Assembly (NCBI GenBank): GCA_026005175.1
Contig: BPKO01000010.1
Location: forward strand, 94,344 to 158,343
Source: Candidatus Tectimicrobiota bacterium
GTDB taxonomy: Bacteria > Tectomicrobia > Entotheonellia > Entotheonellales > Entotheonellaceae
Length of the DNA stretch: 64,000 nucleotides
Reading direction: 5' to 3'
The first letter of the stretch is position 1; each line of letters begins with the position of its first letter. The position numbers were made by a program, and so were the translations under genes. The notes beneath the pieces are model-generated. The model had not been told where the DNA came from and did not search any database. It saw nothing but the letters and a program-made list of their open reading frames with translations. Positions 10,498 to 23,801 of this stretch are shown piece after piece.

Positions 10498-10917
10498 ATG
10501 CGCAAGCTCAACAAAAGCGTGCGCCAGATGGTCGAAGAGGCGCGGGCGCAGATCGTCAACCTGACGCCCGCCGAGGCGCGGCGGCGGGTGGAGGAAGAAA
10601 ATGCCCTGCTCGTTGACATTCGCGACGTGCGCGAGCTGCAGCGCGACGGTGTCATCCCCGGGGCGTTCCATGCGCCGCGCGGCATGCTGGAGTTCTGGGT
10701 AGATCCCGAGTCGCCTTACTTCAAGCCGGTGTTTGGCGAAGAGCGGGAGTTCATTCTCTTTTGAGCCGGCGGCGGGCGGTCAAGTTTGGCCGCAAAAACC
10801 CTGCAAGAGATGGGGCTGCGCGTCTCGCACCTGGTGAGCGGCTTTCGCGGCTGGCAAGAAGCCGGCTTTCCCGTTGTCCCTTACTCGGCCAAGCGCCGCC
10901 CCACGGAGGACGCGTAG
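10498..10917 (+). CDS. Rhodanese-like protein with in-frame TGA at the catalytic Cys (putative selenoprotein)
   Basis: ATG 10498 (after GAGGGAGGAGCGCAG) opens a single-domain rhodanese: VDIRDVRELQRDG at about 39-51 and IPGAFHAPRGMLEFWVDP at 53-70 are typical of this family. The frame meets TGA at 10762-10764 (codon 89) and then continues without interruption to TAG 10915-10917. The TGA sits exactly where the active-site loop needs Cys: FILF-TGA-AGGGRSS, equivalent to the C-x-x-G-x-R loop. After it come LAAKTLQEMG and GFRGWQEAGFPV, the normal C-terminal half. A read-through product would have 139 residues, the usual family length. Sec insertion is inferred; a TGC/TGT-to-TGA mutation or base error is the alternative. 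The next gene is convergent, two bases away. Confidence 0.7.
10765..10793 (+). promoter_or_regulatory. Bacterial SECIS-like hairpin after the in-frame TGA
   Basis: Bases 10776-10782 can pair with 10787-10793 (GCGGTCA with TGGCCGC, seven pairs including one U-G), leaving the tetraloop AGTT at 10783-10786. The loop starts 18 bases after the TGA. A 4-16 bp stem, a small loop with G in its first two positions and roughly 16-37 bases spacing are what I recall as the bacterial SECIS rules. GC-rich DNA forms hairpins easily, so this is supportive rather than proof. Confidence 0.45.
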
Positions 10918-22184: not shown

Positions 22185-23801
22185 ATGGTGCAGAGCCTTA
22201 CCCCGCATGCGCTGCGGGCGCTGCTGGCCAGCGAAGCGCCGCATGCCCTGCTGGACGTGCGCGAGCTGGGCGAGTACAACAGCGCCCACATCCCGGGCGC
22301 CAGCGCCGTGCCGCGGCGGCTGCTGGAGTTCCGCCTGCCGCGGCTGGTGCCGTGCCGCCACACGCAGCTGGTCGTCTACGACGACGACGGCCGCCGCGCT
22401 CGCCTGGCGGCCGCCACCCTGGAACGCATGGGCTACACGCAGGTGGCGGTGCTTGAGGGCGGCCTCAAGCGCTGGGCCAGCCTGGGCTACCGCACCGAGT
22501 GGGGCGTCAACGTGCCCAGCAAGGACTTTGGCGAAAAAGTGCAGGTGCAATACCAGGTCCCGGAAATGCACCCCGAGGCGCTGTGGGCGCGGCTGCAACG
22601 CGGCGAGACCCTGGTGATCCTCGACGCCCGCACCCCCGAAGAGCACCGCCGTGCCACCATCCCCGGCAGCCGCAGCCTGCCCGGGGGCGAGCTGGCGTTG
22701 CGCATTGCCGAGGTGGTCCCCACTGCCGACACCCCCATCGTCGTGCACTGTGCCGGGCGCACCCGCAGCCTGGTCGGCGCGCGGCTGCTGCAGCGCATGG
22801 GCTTCCCTCACGTCTACGCCCTGCGCAACGGCACCATGGGCTGGGCGCTGGCCGGCCTGGCGCTGGAGGAAGGCTCGACGCGGTTCGACCTGCCTGCGCC
22901 GTCGCCGGCAGGACTGGCCGCGGCCGAGCGCTTTGCCGAGCGGGTGGCGGCAGAAGACGGCGTGCAGCGGCTCGGGGTGGCCGAGCTCCAGGCGCTGATG
23001 GCGCGCCGCACGCAGGAAAACATCTATCTTATCGACGTGCGCACGGCCGAAGAATTCGCCCAGGGGCACATTCCCGGCTTTTGGTGGGTGCCGGGCGGGC
23101 AGGCGGTGCAGCGCGCCGACGACGTGGTGGCGGTGCGCCGCGGGCACGTCGTCTTTGCCTGCGACGGCCGCGTGCGCGCCCTGGTCACCGCCTCCTGGTA
23201 CCGGCAGCTCGGCTTTCCCCACGTCTACGCCGTCGACGGCGGCACCCGCGCCTGGCAGCAGGCCGGCCTGCCCCTAGCGCAAGGCGGCCCCGAGAGCCTC
23301 GGCGCCGGCTACGACGCCGGCCTTGACGCCATGCCCTGGGGCTTTGCCGAGGCCCGGGCGCGGGTGACTTGCCTGACGGCCACGGCGCTGCAAGAGCACT
23401 TGCAACGCACCCCCACGGCGCACATCCTCTTCGTCGGCACCAGCCGCGAGTTTAGCCGCGCCCACCTCCCCGGGGCCCGCTGGCTGCTGCGCAGCTGGCT
23501 GGAGCTCGACCTCCCCGCGGTGGCGCCGGACAAGGCAACGCCGCTGGTGCTCACTTGCGCCGACGGCTACCAGGCGGTGCTGGCCGCCGCCACCCTGGAA
23601 GCGCTGGGCTACCGGCAGGTGGTGGTGCTCGACGGCGGCATGCAAGCCTGGCAGCAGGCCGGCCTGCCGGTGGAGCAAGGCCTGAGCGGCGTCATGGCAC
23701 CCCCCAACGACGTGCTGCCCATGGGAACCGAACGCAGTTGGGCCGAGGCCATCCATTACTTGCAGTGGGAAGAGGACTTGGGCGCCAAGTACCACCGCTG
23801 A
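22185..23801 (+). CDS. Four-domain rhodanese-like protein
   Basis: The 538-residue cytoplasmic protein consists of four rhodanese domains at about 1-115, 118-235, 260-370 and 395-515. The active-site position is Asp66 in domain 1 (VVYDDDGRRA, inactive), Cys189 in domain 2 (VHCAGRTRS), Cys326 in domain 3 (FACDGRVRA) and Cys458 in domain 4 (LTCADGYQA). Only domain 2 has a near-canonical loop with the anion-binding Arg at the normal place. ATG 22185 follows GTGGAGAAGTGCCC. Sulfur transfer from thiosulfate or persulfide is the family role; the natural donor and acceptor are unknown. A NIPSNAP gene follows after 77 bases. Confidence 0.88.
   Translation: MVQSLTPHALRALLASEAPHALLDVRELGEYNSAHIPGASAVPRRLLEFRLPRLVPCRHTQLVVYDDDGRRARLAAATLERMGYTQVAVLEGGLKRWASLGYRTEWGVNVPSKDFGEKVQVQYQVPEMHPEALWARLQRGETLVILDARTPEEHRRATIPGSRSLPGGELALRIAEVVPTADTPIVVHCAGRTRSLVGARLLQRMGFPHVYALRNGTMGWALAGLALEEGSTRFDLPAPSPAGLAAAERFAERVAAEDGVQRLGVAELQALMARRTQENIYLIDVRTAEEFAQGHIPGFWWVPGGQAVQRADDVVAVRRGHVVFACDGRVRALVTASWYRQLGFPHVYAVDGGTRAWQQAGLPLAQGGPESLGAGYDAGLDAMPWGFAEARARVTCLTATALQEHLQRTPTAHILFVGTSREFSRAHLPGARWLLRSWLELDLPAVAPDKATPLVLTCADGYQAVLAAATLEALGYRQVVVLDGGMQAWQQAGLPVEQGLSGVMAPPNDVLPMGTERSWAEAIHYLQWEEDLGAKYHR

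Follow-up and report, generated by a model that had tools for sequence, protein, structure and literature searches.

Does the TGA that interrupts a rhodanese gene of a Candidatus Tectimicrobiota bacterium specify selenocysteine (Sec), or does it mark a damaged gene for an ordinary Cys enzyme? The gene lies in a stretch of 64,000 nucleotides, here called the window. The original prediction described a complete rhodanese frame broken only by TGA at codon 89, took this codon for that of the catalytic Cys, and named a single base change from TGC or TGT as the main alternative. The features on which our answer rests are collected in Table 1.

Table 1. Coordinates of the rhodanese gene, its recoding elements (window positions) and the Sec machinery genes (contig:positions in the genome of the window).
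Feature	Position	Strand	Details and evidence
Sec-containing single-domain rhodanese gene (predicted)	10498..10917	+	139 aa, U89; PF00581 match, TGA-bearing homologs, 2hhg alignment
UGA codon, putative Sec at catalytic Cys position	10762..10764	+	frame read directly; homolog codons
bSECIS-like hairpin GCGGUCA-AGUU-UGGCCGC	10776..10793	+	stem of 7 bp; loop of 4 nt, beginning 18 nt past UGA
selA	C3:364895-366268		637.8 bits
selB	C3:366298-368187		directly after selA; 391.5 bits
selC (tRNA-Sec)	C3:375030-375122		7 kb beyond selB; 76.5 bits vs gathering score 47; anticodon TCA by ARAGORN
selD	C9:120631-121554		378.9 bits; one in-frame TGA

Results

A rhodanese frame with one internal TGA

Direct reading and the domain match bear out the first of these claims. 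From the ATG at 10498 to the TAG at 10915-10917 there is one frame of 139 residues, and its sole in-frame stop is the TGA at codon 89. The PF00581 Rhodanese profile covers residues 23-122 over its entire length (positions 1-102 of 102; E 3.8e-16; 59.8 bits against a curated cut-off of 22.2). Third-position GC is high in the codons to either side of the TGA (0.82 and 0.78), a codon-position composition that is coding-like. The nearest solved structure, that of the Cys rhodanese 2hhg (RPA3614), aligns nearly end to end (E 3.5e-40), and the Cys of its C-A-G-G-x-R-S loop falls on residue 89. The corresponding loop of the window protein, U-A-G-G-G-R-S, fits the active-site pattern C-x-x-G-x-R with Sec in place of Cys. 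Standard gene calling under table 11 halts at the TGA and would give a fragment of 88 residues, or more if an upstream start were chosen. The gene stands alone in the window, between one divergent and one convergent gene. Elsewhere in the window, 22185-23675 (G000:C10:116528-118018) is a long open frame with at least four tandem rhodanese-like stretches.

Interchange of TGA and Cys codons among homologs

Codon 89 corresponds to TGC in 112 homologs, TGT in 24, TGA in 15 and nothing else, counts that include duplicate views of some loci; the distinct TGA genes number 10, of which 7 belong to this subfamily. The codon interchange to be looked for among homologs is found exactly at codon 89, the catalytic Cys codon, and shows that the TGA did not fall there by chance. 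Among the first 80 loci retrieved from public genomes, TGA occupied the exact codon in L006, L007, L011 and L046, and the others had TGC or TGT. Searches of the class of L011 and of the phylum of L006 added L142 and L145. Besides the window gene, TGA is therefore carried in six genomes (L006/L172, L142, L007, L011/L144, L046 and L145). A viral contig collection contained no relative.

An ordinary Cys rhodanese altered by sequencing error or by a recent nonsense mutation could look like the window gene, given that one base separates TGA from TGC and TGT and that most homologs have Cys. However, the same TGA recurs in the six other genomes in proteins of 58-75% identity, and no different stop codon occurs there. 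Sharing of the TGA by seven separate assemblies makes sequencing error untenable. Taken with the hairpin and the Sec machinery described below, it also excludes, for practical purposes, the single base change named as main alternative by the original prediction. The sequence past the TGA also stays conserved in the TGA proteins; downstream decay, which had been named as grounds for rejecting the Sec reading, was absent from the close TGA homologs. An in-frame UGA where homologs have Cys is one of the criteria by which bacterial selenoproteins are recognized.

A conserved hairpin downstream of the UGA

A Sec codon in bacteria was expected to be followed by a SECIS element, and a SECIS-like hairpin is indeed found after this UGA (Table 1), with an energy of -10.1 kcal/mol. 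The published bSECIS model calls for a loop of 3-9 nt with G in one of its first two positions, a stem of 4-16 bp, a spacing of 16-37 nt and an energy of at most -7.5 kcal/mol (PMC13188914); the window hairpin lies within each of these limits. Taken from the window sequence alone, it is weak evidence, since 203 of 20000 synonymous re-codings (about 1%) form all seven pairs at the same place and the minimum free energy of the whole 59-nt stretch is ordinary for its composition (z -0.43). Its strength comes from conservation across genomes. All seven TGA members have a stem of 6-7 bp capped by AGUU and starting 11-12 nt past the UGA (-7.8 to -10.7 kcal/mol), and 93.9% of cells are paired across the seven, a figure that drops to 49% or less once the strands are shifted against each other. 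Changes on both sides occur at two pairs: at pair 19-28 four members have A-U, two have U-A and one has U-G, and at pair 15-32 three have G-C and one has A-U, the remaining three being unpaired. In a shuffle test on these seven sequences, a control that leaves their relatedness in, 5 of 500 shuffles reached the covariation score of the real alignment. None of 135 distinct Cys homologs combined at least six pairs with an AGTT loop. A covarying hairpin confined to the TGA forms again argues against error or nonsense mutation.

Sec machinery in the genome

The original prediction also called for a search of the same genome for selA, selB, selC and selD, and all four are present (Table 1) in an assembly of 3.99 Mb that is 77% complete. 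Genes for SelA, SelB, SelD and tRNA-Sec constitute a further criterion for bacterial selenoproteins, and this full set is the third observation that leaves an error or nonsense mutation very improbable. The window itself contained no Rfam family over its gathering score and no tRNA in the Rfam and tRNA scans, selC being on another contig. In the other TGA genomes, selA and/or selB exceeded the cut-off in all six, and tRNA-Sec exceeded its gathering score in three of the four checked; the fourth, that of L007, has selA above the cut-off and a selB fragment at a contig edge.

The in-frame TGA of selD lies at the usual Cys/Sec site (VACAG-U-ASKMSP; locus L137, G000:C9:120000-122500), as in many SelD proteins that contain Sec, and on this sequence selD too is a selenoprotein gene. 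The matches to formate dehydrogenase in this genome have no in-frame TGA and so offer no second witness of Sec use, a part that selD serves. The best formate dehydrogenase alpha match (G000:C1:406409-408452) is split across two frames at profile position 100/101, by a frameshift or an assembly error.

Could the UGA be read through in some other way, by near-cognate suppression or by reassignment, for example to Trp? A frame that stays open and conserved past the TGA would agree with this, but among 56 complete ORFs taken from the window TGA is the stop codon of 25, and it is therefore an ordinary stop in this genome and not reassigned. With tRNA-Sec present and the site otherwise always Cys, such read-through is scarcely credible.

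Discussion

The Sec machinery, the codon interchange, the hairpin and the intact downstream region together uphold the reading of a Sec at the catalytic codon. We put the probability that the gene encodes a selenoprotein, with UGA at codon 89 decoded as Sec, at about 95%, on sequence evidence. Comparison across genomes strongly supports decoding of this UGA by SelB and tRNA-Sec under the direction of the hairpin.

Several rhodanese-like selenoproteins have been reviewed before, including a single-domain UxxG form, UxxS and CxU forms, another UxxG form and the fusion protein TsoB (PMC13188914, PMC9312934, PMC2398784). The window protein is well supported as a further member of this catalogued group, with a UxxG motif, and its gene is accordingly less novel than the original prediction implied. 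Like the window protein, rhodanese-like selenoprotein form 2 (PF00581/COG0607, MBM9537886.1; PMC13188914, PMC9312934) has a single domain and a catalytic Sec in UxxG, a likeness of description and motif, not residue by residue, that does not imply the same subfamily. The CxU form, Rhodanese_LYCAU NF041203, is also a rhodanese (seleno)protein but differs in its Sec motif, and the window protein scores 26.9 bits against it, below the curated cut-off of 115, and is not assigned to it. TsoB (NF045694) likewise has a rhodanese domain with Sec; unlike the single-domain window protein it is a rhodanese/DsbD fusion of 572 positions, and the score is 23.9 against a cut-off of 805. Matches to the NCBIfam selenoprotein and rhodanese models all lay far below cut-off.

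The same genome has a second, distinct rhodanese (L136; G000:C1:396500-398000, minus strand) with TGA at 692-694, the catalytic position (ILH-U-RRDGRA), about 9 kb from the split formate dehydrogenase alpha match. Its homologs in G002 and G003 also have an in-frame TGA (VTH-U-GGENRA). A stem follows the TGA in all three, CUGCCCU-GGC-AGGGCAG in L136, with a C-G pair of L136 exchanged for U-A in the relatives. The UxxD/UxxE motif of this type is unlike the UxxS, UxxG and CxU forms given in the reviews.

A 144-row tree places all seven TGA members of the window gene's subfamily in one cluster (support 81/69) within a well-supported nine-member set that includes two Cys forms (support 96/92). This is consistent with a single gain of Sec in the subfamily, in data too short to exclude more gains. 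A close copy was absent from the four other genomes of the same phylum that were examined, and the nearest relatives, at 72-75%, belong to other genomes, of which one is labelled an actinobacterium. Together these observations suggest horizontal transfer of the rhodanese gene, with loss elsewhere as the alternative. The wider picture can be drawn only tentatively: a separate subfamily of Sec rhodaneses, shared by horizontal transfer and equipped with an AGUU-cap SECIS of its own, may have arisen a single time from a form with Cys (the tree gives this moderate support), moved between Actinomycetota genomes and the small phylum of the window, and act as natural Se-S sulfurtransferases.

Rhodaneses take sulfur from a donor on an active-site residue, as an enzyme-bound persulfide, and hand it on. 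By analogy with this family, the probable role of the window protein is to transfer sulfane sulfur by way of a Se-S intermediate. Its Sec selenolate at the catalytic Cys position would attack thiosulfate or a persulfide as the donor of sulfane sulfur, hold the sulfur as the Se-S intermediate and deliver it to an accepting thiol, for example glutathione or thioredoxin. A different function for the same Sec, mainly in peroxide or thiol redox chemistry or in carrying reduced selenium, would accord with review text in which most characterized selenoproteins are redox enzymes. Active-site Sec is, moreover, reactive toward peroxides. We nevertheless regard this as rather unlikely: the U-A-G-G-G-R-S loop retains the rhodanese pattern, the Cys sister forms resemble ordinary rhodaneses, and no conserved neighbor genes point elsewhere. 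Genes flanking the TGA homologs show no conservation and give no functional clue of their own.

The predicted selenoprotein, compact, single-domain and probably soluble, has close Cys relatives at 60-65% identity in other bacteria that use Sec. Such a natural Sec/Cys pair would offer a clean case for asking what Sec adds to the transfer of sulfane sulfur.
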